Below, one piece after another: positions 43,529 through 51,820 of a stretch of DNA of 64,000 nt. The stretch is from Anaerohalosphaeraceae bacterium (GTDB lineage Bacteria > Planctomycetota > Phycisphaerae > Sedimentisphaerales > Anaerohalosphaeraceae): NCBI GenBank assembly GCA_037479115.1, contig JBBFLK010000011.1, positions 1 to 64,000 on the forward strand. Direction: 5' to 3'. The notes beneath the pieces are model-generated. The model saw only the letters and a program-made list of their open reading frames with translations. It was not told the origin of the DNA and ran no database searches. Position 1 is the first letter of the stretch. Every line of letters starts with the position of its first letter. A program made the translations under genes and the position numbers.

Positions 43529-45046
43529 TTGAAGATTTTGAAACCATTTAGTTCAAACGGGAGCGGACTGTTGAAATTTCTGGTGTTTCAGGATGGTAAG
43601 CCGGCGGAGGATTTTTCTCCGGCGGCTGCTTATATGTTCGGGGCGGACCAGATTCCTCTTTATCAGGTGCAAATGGACTATAAGGACGGGGTTCTGGAGT
43701 GTACCAAGAAAAGTCCGGATTCAGCGGGTTTGGCGCTGCTTTGGCCGGTAGAGGGGGCCGGGCGGCTCCTTTTGTCTACGACGCGGCTTCCGGACAGGCC
43801 GGAGCCCTACAATCTGAACGTGGAGCTGGCAAGGGCCCGCCTGATGCAGATTACCCTGAAGCGAGAGGATTGGGCCCTCTTTGAAGAAGATACCCGATTC
43901 GCCGATTTGGCCCACGAAGCGCAGGACCTGTTCATCCAGTCGCTTTTGCATATTTCGGACCCGGCGCAGGCATCGGTGCTGGCGGACCGCTCTCTGGAAA
44001 AGGGGCTTCAGTTCTCCGAGCAGCTGGCGGCTCGACATGCGGACCAGCTTTTGGCTTTGCGCTGCCGACATCGGGGGCTCGGACGTCATTCTCTCGGGGT
44101 TGGAATTGATTTGGAACGAATAGAGGACCCGACTTATCGAAAATGGCTGCTTGAGATTTTCGGGTTTGTGACGATTCCGATGGAATGGGGGCGGATTGAG
44201 ACAAAACCCGGACATTATGATTTTGAGGCGATTGACCGGTGTATGGAATTGCTGGCGGGACGCCGCCTGGCCCTCTGTGCCGGTCCCTTGCTTCGCTTTC
44301 ACCCCGCCAGTCTGCCTGCCTGGCTGGCTTCGGAGGCCAGAGAATTTGAAAAAATCCGGGAAGCGGCGTATGAGTTTGTGGTCCGCACGGTAGCCCGGTA
44401 TGCCAAATACGTTCATGCCTGGCGGGTGATTTCCGGCATGCACGCGTGGAATTGTTTCGGGTTTACCTTTGAACAGGTGATTGAAATGACGCGGACGGCG
44501 TGTCTGGCGGCCAAGTCGGCGGATACCAAGTCGCGGAAAATCATCGAGATTGTGTTTCCCTGGGGTGAGTATTACGCCACGGACCGCACAACCATCCCGC
44601 CCCTTGTTTATGCGGATATGATTATCCAGAGCGGGATTAACTTTGATGCCGTCGGTCTGCAGCTGCAGTTCGGGGCCAACCAGCCGGGAATGCATGTCCG
44701 GGATATGATGCAGATTTCCTCGCGTCTGGATTTCTTTGCGCAGGTGGCCAAGCCGGTTCATATTACGAGTGTGGCCGTTCCGGATCGGATTTCGATGCCG
44801 CAGGGGGACCCGCAGCTGTGCGGCTATTGGCACAAACCGTGGACGGAGGAGATTCAGGCCCAGTGGATTGAAAGTTTTTATAAAGCGGCGCTGAGCCGTT
44901 CTTTTATCAATACCGTTACATACGGGGCGTTGGCTGACGGAACGCAGAATTCTATGGCCGGTCAGGGGCTTCTGGATGAGCATCTGAATCCCAAAAAAGC
45001 CCTTCTGAGCATTGTAAAATTTCAGAAATTGATTGAAAAGCGATAA
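43529..45046 (+). CDS. GH10-like protein lacking the catalytic glutamates
   Basis: A 505-residue protein without a signal peptide. Residues about 190-480 follow the GH10 xylanase barrel: WGRIETKPGHYDFEAIDRCM, LCAGPLLRFHPASLPAWL and VVRTVARYAKYVHAWRVISG. The acid/base site, usually V-V-N-E-A after the Trp, reads VISGMHAW. The nucleophile strand, usually I-T-E-L-D, reads HITSVAVPD. Both catalytic Glu therefore appear lost. The N-terminal about 185 residues are unlike known binding modules. The start is a TTG; no ATG fits, and the promoter lies only about 20 bases upstream. It could be a sugar-binding sensor or an enzyme with a moved active site. It leads a row of four plus-strand genes to 46816. 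Confidence 0.7.
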   Translation: MKILKPFSSNGSGLLKFLVFQDGKPAEDFSPAAAYMFGADQIPLYQVQMDYKDGVLECTKKSPDSAGLALLWPVEGAGRLLLSTTRLPDRPEPYNLNVELARARLMQITLKREDWALFEEDTRFADLAHEAQDLFIQSLLHISDPAQASVLADRSLEKGLQFSEQLAARHADQLLALRCRHRGLGRHSLGVGIDLERIEDPTYRKWLLEIFGFVTIPMEWGRIETKPGHYDFEAIDRCMELLAGRRLALCAGPLLRFHPASLPAWLASEAREFEKIREAAYEFVVRTVARYAKYVHAWRVISGMHAWNCFGFTFEQVIEMTRTACLAAKSADTKSRKIIEIVFPWGEYYATDRTTIPPLVYADMIIQSGINFDAVGLQLQFGANQPGMHVRDMMQISSRLDFFAQVAKPVHITSVAVPDRISMPQGDPQLCGYWHKPWTEEIQAQWIESFYKAALSRSFINTVTYGALADGTQNSMAGQGLLDEHLNPKKALLSIVKFQKLIEKR

Positions 45047-46846: not shown

Positions 46847-46890
46847 CTTGCGCGAATTTATCTTTATTTATGCGCAAGATTGTCTTGTCC
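46847..46890 (+). promoter_or_regulatory. TTGCGC-N18-GCGCAA control element, copy 1
   Basis: CTTGCGC (46847-46853) and GCGCAAG (46872-46878) form an inverted repeat with an 18-base spacer, continuing into CAAGA-TTG-TCTTG. TTGTCC (46885-46890) could be a -35 box with GATAAT 18 bases on (46909-46914). The same element lies at 48013-48055. Confidence 0.7.
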
Positions 46891-47022
46891 ATTTCTCCCC
46901 TTTTTTCGGATAATTCACAATGTGCTGGAGTGTGTGTGATGTGTGTGTTGGGTGAGGGAAATCCTCGAAACATTTCAAGTTTTTTAAATTCCAAAAACCA
47001 TTTTGGAAAGGAGTGAGGAAAG

Positions 47023-47886
47023 ATGAAGAAATCATTTCTTTTTCTGCTGGTGCTGCTTTTAGGTACTCTCGGCCAGGCCACTGTCATTCTCCACGATACC
47101 TTTGCGGACGGCAGCCGTCTGGAAACGAATCTGCCGTATGAGTCGGCGCTGTATGCCTCGTCCCCTGCCGATGTGACGGTCAGCGTGGGGTCGGTTCGTC
47201 AGGCGATGAGCACTGCGAGCCGACGGCTGCATACGTATTTTGCTGATCAGGGCAGTCCGCTGGGGCTGAATGTCGGCGACAAACTGGTGGCCACCATCGA
47301 GTTTGCACCTTGCGGTGCTCTGTACAGCTCCACGAGCCGCAATTTCCGTTTCGGGCTGTTTTATGACCCGACCAGCCCCCAGCATCGGGCTGACAATATC
47401 GGGGATTCCGGCGTCAGCAATTCCTGGCAGGATGCGACGGGCTATGCGGTCCAGTTTTCGCTGAGCTCGGGAACAGCCAGCACGATTCAGGTGGGTAAGC
47501 GGACAGACTTTACAGTCACCAGTCTTTTGGGGACAAGCGGGGCCTATCAGTGGGGAACGGGCACAGGGGGAGCGAGCAACCTCGTTTTGGACCGGGTTTA
47601 TACGATGACGTTTGTTCTGGATTACCAGGCCGCCGACCTGATGCAGGTTGATTTTACGTTTATGGATGATTACGGCTTCTCCACTTCGGCCTCTCTGACG
47701 GATAACGGTCTGGGCGGCAAGCCGATTTACACGAATTTTGATTTCCTTCTGTTCCGGTTCTCTGCGGCTTCCGGAACAGCCGACATCATTGATATCCGAA
47801 GCATCAAGATTGAGTATATCCCGGAACCGGCAACGCTGGCTCTGCTGGGAATCGGCGGGCTGCTGGCGTTCCGCAGGAAACGCTAA
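47023..47886 (+). CDS. Secreted PEP-CTERM protein, jelly-roll-like domain
   Basis: A 287-residue protein with a signal peptide (1-19), one beta-rich domain beginning VILHDTFADGSRLETNLPYESA, and the tag YIPEPATLALLGIGGLLAFRRKR. The same domain opens the larger protein at 48177 (VLLYDTFADGSRTETNLPTESA, later FRLGLFYDPT and IVDYNSIKIE). The domain may bind carbohydrate, judged only from its setting and beta pattern. AAAGGAG and GAGGAAAG precede the ATG. It is preceded by the inverted-repeat element and a GT-rich leader, and followed by a terminator, so it is monocistronic. Confidence 0.82.
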   Translation: MKKSFLFLLVLLLGTLGQATVILHDTFADGSRLETNLPYESALYASSPADVTVSVGSVRQAMSTASRRLHTYFADQGSPLGLNVGDKLVATIEFAPCGALYSSTSRNFRFGLFYDPTSPQHRADNIGDSGVSNSWQDATGYAVQFSLSSGTASTIQVGKRTDFTVTSLLGTSGAYQWGTGTGGASNLVLDRVYTMTFVLDYQAADLMQVDFTFMDDYGFSTSASLTDNGLGGKPIYTNFDFLLFRFSAASGTADIIDIRSIKIEYIPEPATLALLGIGGLLAFRRKR

Positions 47887-47919
47887 GTATCCTCCGGAAA
47901 CGAACCGTCTTCACATAGA

Positions 47920-47955
47920 AAACCGGCCCCATCGCCCAGCGGCAGGGGCCGGTTT
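47920..47955 (+). terminator. Terminator after the PEP-CTERM gene
   Basis: An 11-bp stem (47920-47930 with 47945-47955) with a 14-base loop, ending in TTTCTTAG. Confidence 0.8.
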
Positions 47956-48012
47956 CTTAGATAGGAGAAAAAAGGCGTTTCCAGTATTGATAAGCGGGTT
48001 TTGAGCATTCTG

Positions 48013-48055
48013 TTGCGCAAAATCATTCTTGTTTTGGCGCAAGATTGACTTGTCT
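48013..48055 (+). promoter_or_regulatory. TTGCGC-N18-GCGCAA control element, copy 2
   Basis: TTGCGC (48013-48018) and GCGCAA (48037-48042) again lie exactly 18 bases apart, followed by GATTGACTTGTCT, matching copy 1 except at two positions. It lies about 120 bases before the start of the modular protein gene at 48177. Confidence 0.7.
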
Positions 48056-48176
48056 AAACAGTCTGATTTGCCGAAGATAAATCCAAGTCGTTTTCTATAC
48101 AAGGCGTCTCTGCAGGACGAGGACTGCGGAGAAAATCAACCAATCAGGGATTCATAAAAAGATGAGGAGAAGCACA

Positions 48177-50315
48177 ATGGCAAGGACACTTCAGTTTACC
48201 TTTCTGACGGCGGTTTTGGTCCTGGGTGCGGTCTGCTCGGCGGAGGTTCTGCTTTATGATACCTTTGCCGACGGAAGCCGTACAGAAACCAACCTGCCGA
48301 CAGAGTCAGCCGTATGGTTTTCGCATCCGACTAATCTGACGGTCAGCAGCGGCTCTTTGGCCGTCAATCAGCAGGCGATCGGCAACACCAGTTCCAAGAT
48401 GTGGACGTATTTTGCTCCGAACGGTTCCCCCGTGTCGCTGGGGGTTGGGGACAAGCTTGTCGCCGAAATAACATTTACCCCGCGCGGGGCAATGTACAGC
48501 ACCAGTTCCAAAAACTTCCGACTGGGACTTTTTTATGACCCGACAGATGAGCAGCTTCTGCAGGATACCAACTCGGATACCGGCGGCGGACGCTGGGTGG
48601 ACTCTCGGGGTTATGCCGTGATGTTTACGCTCAGTCCGGATTCGACGGCCGGGACAATTCAGGTCGGCAAACGGACCAATGTCACCGGAACGGACGGTCT
48701 CCTGAGTTCTGCAGGCACCTATACCTGGAATACCGGTTCCGGTCAGGCGGCCAATTTGAGTCTGAATACGCAATATACAATGAAACTGCTGCTTGAGCGT
48801 ACGGCAGAAGCGGAAATGAAGGTGACCTTTACATTTCTGCAGGGCAGTACGGAGATAGCTTCGAGTACCTTAACGGATAATGGTTTGGGCAGTCTTCCGA
48901 TTTATACGTTGTTTGACCAGCTGTTCATTCGTCTGTCCACCTATACGGGGACGGCGGATATTGTGGATTACAACAGCATCAAGATTGAAAAGATTCCGGC
49001 GGCTTACGGCGGCCCTTTGGTCGGTGTGGAGCGGGTCTTTACCGCGGTGGAAAGCTGCCGGACGGACGGCGGCCAGCCCGATACCAACGTGGCGGACAGC
49101 AGCAAACTGAGTGTGCGGCGTTCGTCTCCCGGTGCCAAATCCTGGATTAAATTCAATATGGGTCAGATTGACAAAAGCAAGCTGCGGGCGGCCTCGCTGA
49201 CGGTGGCCCTTCAGGAGCCGGAAGCCGGGTCCAATACCTGTGATGTGTCGGCAGTGAATGATGACTGTCTGGATAATATCGGATGGACCCGCACAACGCT
49301 GACCTGGAATAACGCCCCGGGAAATCTGACGACGGATTTGGCTCTTTTGGACCCGACAAAGACTACTCTGGTGGGGACTCTTTCCATTGTTGACGGCCTG
49401 ATTGGACAAAAATACAGCATTGGGGTCTTGCCTGTAGTTCAGGCCGATACAGACGGGATTGTTCAGTTTGTGCTTCACAACAGCAATGTGCTGATGAACT
49501 TCTGCACGCACAATCATGCAACCGCTGCTTATCGGCCGGTGCTGACGGTGCTGGAAAAACCGGCCGGGGCAGACTGGCCGATTCCGTATCAGGGCCAGAC
49601 GGTTCAGACCAATCTGGCCTTTCTGCAGTGGACCAATCCGGACCCGAACCGGCCGGGCGGGGTTATTACCTGCGATGTCTATCTGGGCACGGAGCCCAAT
49701 CGGATTCAAATGGATAAAGTTACCCTGGGGGCCGGTGTGAATACCGTGGCGGTTACGTCCGCGAATTTCCCGCGGTTTGTGCCGCTGCAGGAGCGGCAGA
49801 CGTATTACTGGATTGTGGATGTGCATGATTCAAGCCGCGAAGGGGTGCTGGAGGGTCTGGTTTGGTCGTTCTATGTAAACAACAACGAGCCGCCGATTGT
49901 GAATGCCGGGCCGGACCAGATTACCTGGGGGCTGCCGAAGGTCATTTCCCTGTCCGGAACCGCCTCGGATGACGGACGTCCCAACCCGCCCGGGCAATTG
50001 ACCGTTCAGTGGACGCAGGACAGCGGGCCGGCGGTCACCATCAGCCCCGACAATCAGCTGAATGCATCCGTCTCGATTTCGCAAGCCGGCGTGTATGTGT
50101 TCCGACTGACGGCCAATGACAGCGAGAAGCAGACTTCTGATACGGTGAAAGTGGTGGTTGGCGAAACCAGCTGCCAGGCCTCCCATCTGTCCACAGGACA
50201 GCCGTATATGGCCGGTGATTTCAATCAGGACTGCATCGTGAACCTGGAGGATTTTGCGGAGTTTCTCAGCAAGAACTGGCGGGTCTGCACAAACCTGCTG
50301 ACCGGGTGTTATTAA
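48177..50315 (+). CDS. Modular secreted DNRLRE/Fn3/PKD protein with dockerin-like tail
   Basis: A 712-residue protein: signal peptide (1-24), a DTFADGSR domain shared with the protein at 47023 (about 25-275), a DNRLRE-type beta domain (about 285-460, SKLSVRRSSPGAKSWIKF and LTWNNAPGNLTTDL), an Fn3-like segment (WTNPDPNRPGGVITCDVYLG), a PKD-like domain (NAGPDQITWG) and the tail DFNQDCIVNLEDFAEFLS, WRVC and a Cys one residue before the end. GAGGAG 7-8 bases before the ATG at 48177 supports that start over one 15 bases earlier. It is likely an adhesin or polysaccharide-binding scaffold. Confidence 0.85.
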   Translation: MARTLQFTFLTAVLVLGAVCSAEVLLYDTFADGSRTETNLPTESAVWFSHPTNLTVSSGSLAVNQQAIGNTSSKMWTYFAPNGSPVSLGVGDKLVAEITFTPRGAMYSTSSKNFRLGLFYDPTDEQLLQDTNSDTGGGRWVDSRGYAVMFTLSPDSTAGTIQVGKRTNVTGTDGLLSSAGTYTWNTGSGQAANLSLNTQYTMKLLLERTAEAEMKVTFTFLQGSTEIASSTLTDNGLGSLPIYTLFDQLFIRLSTYTGTADIVDYNSIKIEKIPAAYGGPLVGVERVFTAVESCRTDGGQPDTNVADSSKLSVRRSSPGAKSWIKFNMGQIDKSKLRAASLTVALQEPEAGSNTCDVSAVNDDCLDNIGWTRTTLTWNNAPGNLTTDLALLDPTKTTLVGTLSIVDGLIGQKYSIGVLPVVQADTDGIVQFVLHNSNVLMNFCTHNHATAAYRPVLTVLEKPAGADWPIPYQGQTVQTNLAFLQWTNPDPNRPGGVITCDVYLGTEPNRIQMDKVTLGAGVNTVAVTSANFPRFVPLQERQTYYWIVDVHDSSREGVLEGLVWSFYVNNNEPPIVNAGPDQITWGLPKVISLSGTASDDGRPNPPGQLTVQWTQDSGPAVTISPDNQLNASVSISQAGVYVFRLTANDSEKQTSDTVKVVVGETSCQASHLSTGQPYMAGDFNQDCIVNLEDFAEFLSKNWRVCTNLLTGCY

Positions 50316-50422: not shown

Positions 50423-51820
50423 ATGAAAAAGACATATTTCTTTCTTCTGCTCTGTGTGTTCAGCGTTTCGGCTCTGGCGCTGGATGTGAAGGTCATGTCG
50501 AGTATGAGCTGTCGGACAGAGGGCGGCGGCTATGCGGACCAGAACCGGCATGACAGCTCAAAATTAAGCGTTCGCAATACGAGCAACGGCAACAAATCGT
50601 GGATTAAGTTCAGCGGGCTCGGTTCCTATGATTTGACCAAGGTGCGGGCGGCGTATTTGACGGTGGCTCTGCATGAAGGCAAGGCCGGGGCCAACAGCTG
50701 CAAGGTCTCTGCCGTAAATGACAGCTGCGTGGAGAATATTCTCTGGGTGGACCACACCAGTTTGGCCAATCCGGAGCAGGGAATCTATGCCCTGACGTGG
50801 AACAATGCCCCCGGCAATCTGACGACGGATTTGGGGGCTTTGGATTCCAGCAAGACTACGTATATCAGTACCATTACCTTTACGGACGGGGTAGCCGGTC
50901 AGGCGTTTACCGTTGACGTGACTGACGCTGTCAAGGCGGATACAGACGGCATCGTGCAGTTTGTTCTGCATGATTCGCCTTTGCTGATTAATTTTGCCAC
51001 GCATGACCATGCCACAGCGGCCTGGCGGCCTTATCTGACGCTGGTCTTCCCGCCGCTGGGGGCGGATTACCCTGTTCCGGCGGACGGATATGACAAGGTG
51101 CCGACAAATCTGGCTCAGCTTTCCTGGACGAATCCGGAGCCGAATGTGCCGGGCCAGCCGATTTATTGTGATGTCTATCTGGGCACGGAACCTAACCGGC
51201 TTCTGATGGATAAGGTGACGCTGGGCAACAATATTTCCAGTGTGGCCCTGACGGCGGCCAATTTCCCGCACTTTGTCCCGCTGACCAATTACACCCGGTA
51301 TTACTGGGTTGTGGACTGCTATGACCCGACCAAGGGAAAGATTGAAGGGGAGATGTGGTCATTCTATACAAACGACAATCAGCCGCCGTATAATGTCTCC
51401 GTCGGCTCTCCTCAGGCAACCTGGCTGGTGGCCGGGACGACGTCGGTGACGCTGATTGGGTCTGCTCAGGATGACGGGCTTCCGATTCCGCCCGGCCAGC
51501 TGAGTTATTTGTGGGAGCGGACGGCGGGGCCGACAACAGCCGTCATTGTCAGCCCGAACAGTTCCTCAACGCGGGTGGACTTTACGCAGGCCGGGGACTA
51601 CACATTCCGTCTGACGGCCAGCGACGGGGCGGAAAGTGCCTCGGCGACGGTTCGCGTGGTCGTCGGCAATACCTCCTGCGACGCCAGCCATGTCTTCTAC
51701 AATCAGCCGTACAATCCGGCCGATGTCAATCAGGACTGCATCGTGAACCTGACGGACCTGCAGACCCTGATTGTCAACAACTGGCTGGTGTGCGACAACA
51801 CGCTGGAGCCGTGCAATTAA
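50423..51820 (+). CDS. DNRLRE/Fn3/PKD protein with dockerin-like tail, short paralogue
   Basis: A 465-residue secreted protein: signal peptide (1-19), then the same DNRLRE-Fn3-PKD-tail order as the second part of the protein at 48177. SKLSVRNTSNGNKSWIKF, LTWNNAPGNLTTDLGALDSS and TNPEPNVPGQPIYCDVYLG line up closely. The end is DVNQDCIVNLTDLQTLI, WLVC and a Cys one residue before the end. The DTFADGSR domain is absent. GAGGAG 7 bases upstream sets the start. It follows its paralogue by 107 bases and closes with a strong terminator, so the two may share a transcript. Confidence 0.85.
   Translation: MKKTYFFLLLCVFSVSALALDVKVMSSMSCRTEGGGYADQNRHDSSKLSVRNTSNGNKSWIKFSGLGSYDLTKVRAAYLTVALHEGKAGANSCKVSAVNDSCVENILWVDHTSLANPEQGIYALTWNNAPGNLTTDLGALDSSKTTYISTITFTDGVAGQAFTVDVTDAVKADTDGIVQFVLHDSPLLINFATHDHATAAWRPYLTLVFPPLGADYPVPADGYDKVPTNLAQLSWTNPEPNVPGQPIYCDVYLGTEPNRLLMDKVTLGNNISSVALTAANFPHFVPLTNYTRYYWVVDCYDPTKGKIEGEMWSFYTNDNQPPYNVSVGSPQATWLVAGTTSVTLIGSAQDDGLPIPPGQLSYLWERTAGPTTAVIVSPNSSSTRVDFTQAGDYTFRLTASDGAESASATVRVVVGNTSCDASHVFYNQPYNPADVNQDCIVNLTDLQTLIVNNWLVCDNTLEPCN

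Follow-up and report, generated by a model that had tools for sequence, protein, structure and literature searches.

XylR of Escherichia coli, known for the xylAB/xylFGHR operators, binds tandem direct repeats that lie beside the −35 box and activates transcription. Monomers of AraC-type regulators contact two successive major grooves of the DNA and, in AraC, RhaS and XylR, the geometry of the half-site at the −35 box allows a contact with sigma-70, leading to class II activation with the sugar. The present analysis concerns the first 64,000 nucleotides (forward strand) of contig JBBFLK010000011.1 of an Anaerohalosphaeraceae bacterium (Planctomycetota; Phycisphaerae; Sedimentisphaerales; GenBank assembly GCA_037479115.1), a stretch that will be called the window, and two similar elements found in it upstream of two genes for secreted proteins (targets A and B). 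These elements are probably the operator part of complete promoters at which a regulator of the XylR type (AraC/XylS family) would act, controlling a pectin-linked regulon by class II activation.

In Bacteroides, AraC-type regulators of the hybrid two-component system (HTCS) class use direct repeats with a 21-bp period to control polysaccharide regulons, including those for pectin (PMC3878776). The likeness to the elements described here lies in the direct-repeat operators and in the polysaccharide regulons, but the Bacteroides proteins are membrane hybrid two-component systems, whereas the candidate regulator of the present case is a one-component protein with a LacI-type sensor, the period is 22 bp and the motif is a different one. 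In Proteobacteria, the PrsR/sigma-54 element, with its −24/−12 motif, is found before most PEP-CTERM genes (PMC1569441). It is also a cis-element that precedes PEP-CTERM genes, with a factor found by phylogenetic profiling, but in the genome under study the promoter is sigma-70-like, a single PEP-CTERM gene is involved, and both hallmarks of PrsR control, namely its promoter motif and its generality, are missing. With E. coli XylR, the candidate regulator shares the architecture of the full-length protein (match to 4fe7 over residues 21-420, E=1e-44), whereas the half-site sequence, the gene set, the phylum and probably the ligand differ, the E. coli operator sequences being outside the comparison. 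The regulon is new, while its kind (XylR-type) is known, and a literature search returned no description of such a cis-element with its trans-acting factor in uncultured Phycisphaerae. Haft et al. (PMC1569441) pointed out that, beyond the Proteobacteria, additional DNA motifs and regulators for PEP-CTERM genes were still to be found, and the present element would be one such motif with its regulator, though governing a single PEP-CTERM gene in its own genome.

The elements were initially recognized, in an earlier note made from the window sequence, as two copies of an inverted repeat, TTGCGC-N18-GCGCAA, with differing spacers and a common downstream part. Two exact copies of TTGCGC-N18-GCGCAA-GATTGnCTTGTC are indeed present, at 46848 and 48013, each before one of the two genes: copy A (46848-46877) reads TTGCGC-GAATTTATCTTTATTTAT-GCGCAA, then GATTGTCTTGTC, and copy B (48013-48042) reads TTGCGC-AAAATCATTCTTGTTTTG-GCGCAA, then GATTGACTTGTC. 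From shuffled sequences 0.01 exact occurrences of the repeat are expected in the window, and none of the shuffles contained two. When two mismatches were allowed, no excess over chance was observed in the window; therefore, the exact form alone is informative. With at most one mismatch, the whole genome contains 11 places per strand versus 0 for the reversed-pattern control, part of them being chance matches in coding sequence, and in the true genomic copies the common sequence extends far beyond the TTGCGC/GCGCAA arms. A sequence-only profile model was built from the seven sites of the genome itself and, on searching the 3.0 Mb genome, it returned seven sites at 45-52 bits, the next best match being at approximately 16 bits; five further genomes of the genus yielded 5-7 sites apiece. 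Column and spacing statistics were calculated on 41 high-scoring sites from these genomes, the consensus of which is TTGCGC[AG]AAATnnTCTTTTTTTnnGCGC[AG]AnATTGCCTTGT. The spacer had been regarded as free on the basis of the two window copies, a view that does not survive the comparison: copies elsewhere have it conserved as AAATnnTCTTTTTTT, and it is conserved across the 41 sites, so that it is not arbitrary; it is under selection. A structured RNA element was considered and rejected, given the absence of family matches in an Rfam search of the element up to E=0.1 and its position upstream of the −10 box. A half-match at C4:102036 was dropped, as the full model did not confirm it. A weak site, shifted by one base and scoring 16-20 bits, is found at C18:15684-15713 (L029:5985-6017), flanked by divergent genes for a pectate lyase and a BD-FAE-type esterase; it was left out of the regulon as uncertain.

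Self-comparison of the columns of the 41 sites revealed that the element is a direct repeat of a half-site of approximately 16 bp with a 22-bp period (similarity 0.695 at shift 22, and not above 0.394 at other shifts). Site by site, 11.1 of 16 positions agree on average in this register, as opposed to 4.2 at other shifts. The six-base arms are complementary at 5.3 of 6 positions on average and their leading TT is nearly invariant, which would suit an inverted-repeat operator, TTGCGC-N18-GCGCAA, of some other dimeric regulator. This is, however, quite improbable: the inverted symmetry is confined to the arms and drops to 2.7 of 9 at the inner positions, many fewer than the direct register accounts for, TTGCGCAA is palindromic in itself, so that the arms appear inverted, and the phylogenetic profile, discussed below, favours a XylR-type protein. 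The inverted repeat as first described is, from the column data, the visible part of a tandem direct repeat. Two tandem direct half-sites approximately two helical turns apart (22-bp period) are what a XylR-type regulator would require. The components of the two elements and of their promoters are listed here.

46848..46889, + strand: element A, tandem operator TTGCGCGAATTTATCTTTATTTATGCGCAAGATTGTCTTGTC (exact match; model score 46.4 bits)
46850..46865, + strand: half-site 1 of element A, GCGCGAATTTATCTTT (shifted by 22 bp, it agrees with half-site 2 at 11 of 16 positions)
46872..46887, + strand: half-site 2 of element A, GCGCAAGATTGTCTTG (column model; reaches 3-4 bp into the −35 box)
46885..46890, + strand: −35-like TTGTCC, promoter A (model positions 38-43; fixed spacing to the −10 box)
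46909..46914, + strand: −10-like GATAAT, promoter A, with an 18-bp spacer (sequence; GAnAAT column block conserved in the 41 sites)
48013..48054, + strand: element B, tandem operator TTGCGCAAAATCATTCTTGTTTTGGCGCAAGATTGACTTGTC (exact match; 45.1 bits)
48015..48030, + strand: half-site 1 of element B, GCGCAAAATCATTCTT (shifted by 22 bp, it agrees with half-site 2 at 9 of 16 positions)
48037..48052, + strand: half-site 2 of element B, GCGCAAGATTGACTTG (column model)
48050..48055, + strand: −35-like TTGTCT, promoter B (sequence and column model)
48073..48078, + strand: −10-like GAAGAT, promoter B, with a 17-bp spacer (sequence; orthologous promoters have CCGAAGATAAT there)
48076-48081, + strand: alternative −10 GATAAA, promoter B, with a 20-bp spacer (sequence)

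The second half-site runs into a −35-like TTGTnn, which is followed by a −10-like GAnAAT. The assignment of TTGTC[CT] as a −35 box, already made in the earlier note, is strengthened by the spacing of the two boxes: 31 of the 41 sites have 17 bp between them and 6 have 18 bp, against a background of approximately one at most other spacings. All 41 sites have a start codon on the same strand 22-215 bp downstream. Of the −35 box TTGT alone is kept, and 33 of the 41 sites have a −10 box that begins with G in place of T; the predicted promoter, TTGTnn-N17-GAnAAT, would be weak and of the sigma-70 type. With these fixed distances, the half-site nearer the gene adjoins or overlaps the −35 box, as is the case in class II promoters. 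The overlap also fits occlusion, and the sensor domain of the candidate regulator is LacI-like, so that a XylR-type protein bound to the tandem sites could act as a repressor, occupying the −35 box until the sugar frees it. Such a mode of action is unlikely: a promoter this poor is expected under activator dependence, and tandem sites that end 3-4 bp into the −35 box have the class II activation layout of the AraC-type activators. The strict position with respect to the −10-like box could also denote a promoter class of an alternative sigma factor with no operator at all. However, the repeated half-site and the extent of approximately 38 bp are too large for a sigma recognition box, the −35 and −10 boxes are sigma-70-like, and the approximately seven sites per genome are linked to a DNA-binding regulator, making this reading highly improbable.

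The candidate for such a regulator was picked out by phylogenetic profiling and is encoded on a contig other than that of the window (G000:C25:7257-8528, − strand). It has the architecture of XylR, with an N-terminal periplasmic-binding-protein-like sensor (Peripla_BP_3, 4e-30) and a C-terminal AraC double helix-turn-helix (HTH_18, 8e-20; HTH_AraC, 1.5e-9), and is the probable binder of the elements. One of the strongest sites (C25:8613) is found 84 bp before the divergently oriented regulator gene. All six genomes of the genus contain an orthologue (at least 50% identity) with a site just upstream. The data comprise 14 genomes that have both a site and an orthologue, whether intact or split, and in 12 of them a site lies 84-531 bp upstream of the regulator gene and points away from it. 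The GTDB contigs with the regulator belong to Phycisphaerae/Sedimentisphaerales metagenome-assembled genomes, among them independent ones with a site 155-580 bp upstream. When 298 genomes of the class were compared, site and regulator occurred together in 13 and were both absent from 282; 2 genomes had a site without the regulator, and 1 had the regulator without a site (Fisher p=8e-20, with relatedness ignored, i.e. without phylogenetic correction). The distribution is patchy within genera, with joint gain or loss of site and regulator: both are present in G267 and G309 of genus g12, in G118 of g13, and in G034 and G219 of g17, and neither is found in their congeners G016 (g12), G017 and G223 (g13), and G024 (g17).

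The strongest argument for an action of the C25 regulator on the window elements is provided by genomes G309 and G118, in which a single locus contains the regulator, the element, homologues of gene A (48-53% identity), of gene B (53%) and of the gene that follows B in the window (60% in G309), a pseudopilin (47-50%) and a Gfo/Idh protein (65-68%). In the G309 cluster the gene B homologue has an element of its own. The Gfo/Idh gene of this cluster adjoins, in the genome under study, the regulator on C25. Since G309 and G118 hold all of these components in one locus, the simplest reading of the window and regulator loci is that they are parts of a formerly single cluster, with elements kept by each.

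The motif, its position with respect to the −35 and −10 boxes, the gene set, the conservation, and the fact that the motif is linked to the regulator and co-occurs with it were obtained by computation; binding of the regulator, activation and the ligand are what we infer. In the proposed mechanism, the two DNA-binding domains of a dimer would lie head-to-tail on the half-sites GCGC[AG]AnATTGYCTT, 22 bp apart; in each monomer, one helix-turn-helix unit would contact GCGC[AG]A and the other YCTT, one helical turn (approx. 10.5 bp) further on. The downstream half-site, which reaches 3-4 bp into the weak −35 box, would position the protein for contact with sigma-70 and for activation upon sugar binding. 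Approximately seven promoters would be induced in this way, probably by a sugar released when pectin or an associated plant polysaccharide is degraded.

The seven promoters of the genome are those of the two window genes, a PL1 pectate lyase (C7), a DUF6298 protein (C2) and three pseudopilins (one on C1, two on C25), the latter being of the N-methylated type. The second site on C25 has a GH28 polygalacturonase-type enzyme and a Pec_lyase (PF09492)/GDSL protein as neighbours, and targets and neighbours of sites, taken together, include PL1, GH28, Pec_lyase (PF09492) and GH78; the pectate lyase of C7 is divergent from genes for an FGGY kinase and a xylose-isomerase-like protein. The element is real and well conserved, and serves a small regulon as operator and promoter. 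Because unrelated genes (pectate lyase, DUF6298 protein, pseudopilins) have the same element, it is a selected protein-binding site and no relic of duplication, as had been surmised from the two window copies. The genome encodes approximately 46 PEP-CTERM tails, only 1 of which is behind a site, and approximately 55 N_methyl matches, 3 of which have one, so that a general control of PEP-CTERM proteins or of pseudopilins is rejected; a tie to the PEP-CTERM or dockerin tails themselves, which the earlier note had proposed for a genome-wide test, is likewise not supported. One target is a PEP-CTERM protein, and elements for the control of PEP-CTERM genes at large, of the PrsR/sigma-54 kind, are known in Proteobacteria (PMC1569441), but an element of that kind can practically be dismissed here in view of these counts and of a consensus that has sigma-70-like −35 and −10 boxes in place of the −24 GG/−12 GC motif.

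The genes of the window cluster are the following.

47023..47886, + strand: target A, secreted protein with a PEP-CTERM tail and, in a low-confidence model, a ConA/L-type-lectin-like domain (PF07589/TIGR02595; AlphaFold)
48177..50315, + strand: target B, secreted, with a lectin-like domain as in A, then CBM96/DNRLRE, PKD and a dockerin-like C-terminus (profile matches; paralogy)
50423..51820, + strand: probable third gene of the cluster, secreted CBM96-like/DNRLRE and PKD protein with a dockerin-like end (profile matches; without a site of its own)

Targets A and B are paralogous (53% identity over 279 amino acids), in agreement with the relatedness assumed at the outset, and the start of gene B then chosen, 48177, is likely to be correct, an AGGAG being present seven bases ahead of its ATG (the open reading frame list has 48162). 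The third gene stays beside B in related genomes and is 60% identical in L165. A sequence search of the PDB with target A gave no useful match; its AlphaFold model is a jelly roll (predicted local distance difference test score, pLDDT, 63), the best PDB structure matches of which are legume lectins (E down to 1e-8, TM-score approx. 0.5), so that the lectin-like fold may be taken as a lead only. Just upstream of the cluster, the translation of 43529-45046 resembles a GH10 xylanase by eye; this gene is not behind a site.

Several observations weigh against the proposed control by a XylR-type activator responding to a pectin sugar. The leading TT and the T-tract are present in half-site 1 only; therefore, the halves differ and cannot be regarded as equivalent. 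In G207 one site is present but no regulator orthologue, and the single strong site of G034 is 20 kb from its regulator. The G219 regulator is at a contig start, and therefore its upstream region is only partly visible. G014 also has sites and no orthologue. Its site-bearing contig (G014:C39, L119; 8.5 kb, two sites) is collinear with the genus of the window at 76% nucleotide identity, G014 being of another genus, and has a G+C content of 0.49 versus 0.55 for another contig of that genome; for these reasons it may be mis-binned or (recently) transferred. Conversely, the orthologue in G030 is accompanied only by a degenerate site, located at the edge of a contig, and the second recognition helix of this regulator is altered (VNTPNMRRAF versus HYTSNMRRAF). 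Finally, the FGGY-kinase/xylose-isomerase-like pair by the pectate-lyase site and the likely xylanase of the window make xylose a possible ligand.

The shared control ties a set of orphan surface proteins, namely the lectin-like PEP-CTERM protein, the dockerin-bearing protein, the three pseudopilins and the DUF6298 protein, to pectin breakdown, and their function thereby becomes testable. A tentative extension, rather doubtful at present, is that a sugar-responsive switch of the XylR type builds a dedicated pectin-capture surface, in which PEP-CTERM-anchored and dockerin-bearing lectin-like proteins and the three pseudopilins, as a pilus-like or cell-surface assembly, would work with the secreted pectate lyase and DUF6298 enzymes. 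If true, Phycisphaerae would have in this surface a hitherto undescribed strategy for the uptake of polysaccharides.

The genome encodes a second regulator of the XylR type at G000:C14:49704-50840 (L122:3648-4862), which shares 32% identity with the first and is likewise flanked by genes for a PEP-CTERM protein and a pseudopilin; no direct-repeat operator was recognizable for it. These surroundings suggest a repeated module of regulator and surface proteins for different polysaccharides. Just upstream of this regulator, and inside a short open reading frame, is a 21-nt tandem repeat, CTGTCATTCCCTTAAGCACCT, present seven times (L122:3188-3334). In G002, a diverged tandem site, GCGCGAAATTAACCTGTATTCTGCGCGAAATCAACTTGT, is found on C115 (L112:7184-7223) between two genes, one of which has a pectate-lyase-like start. 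A second regulator copy of that genome, 55% identical and with a different second recognition helix, is near this diverged site, a possible case of co-evolution of regulator and operator.
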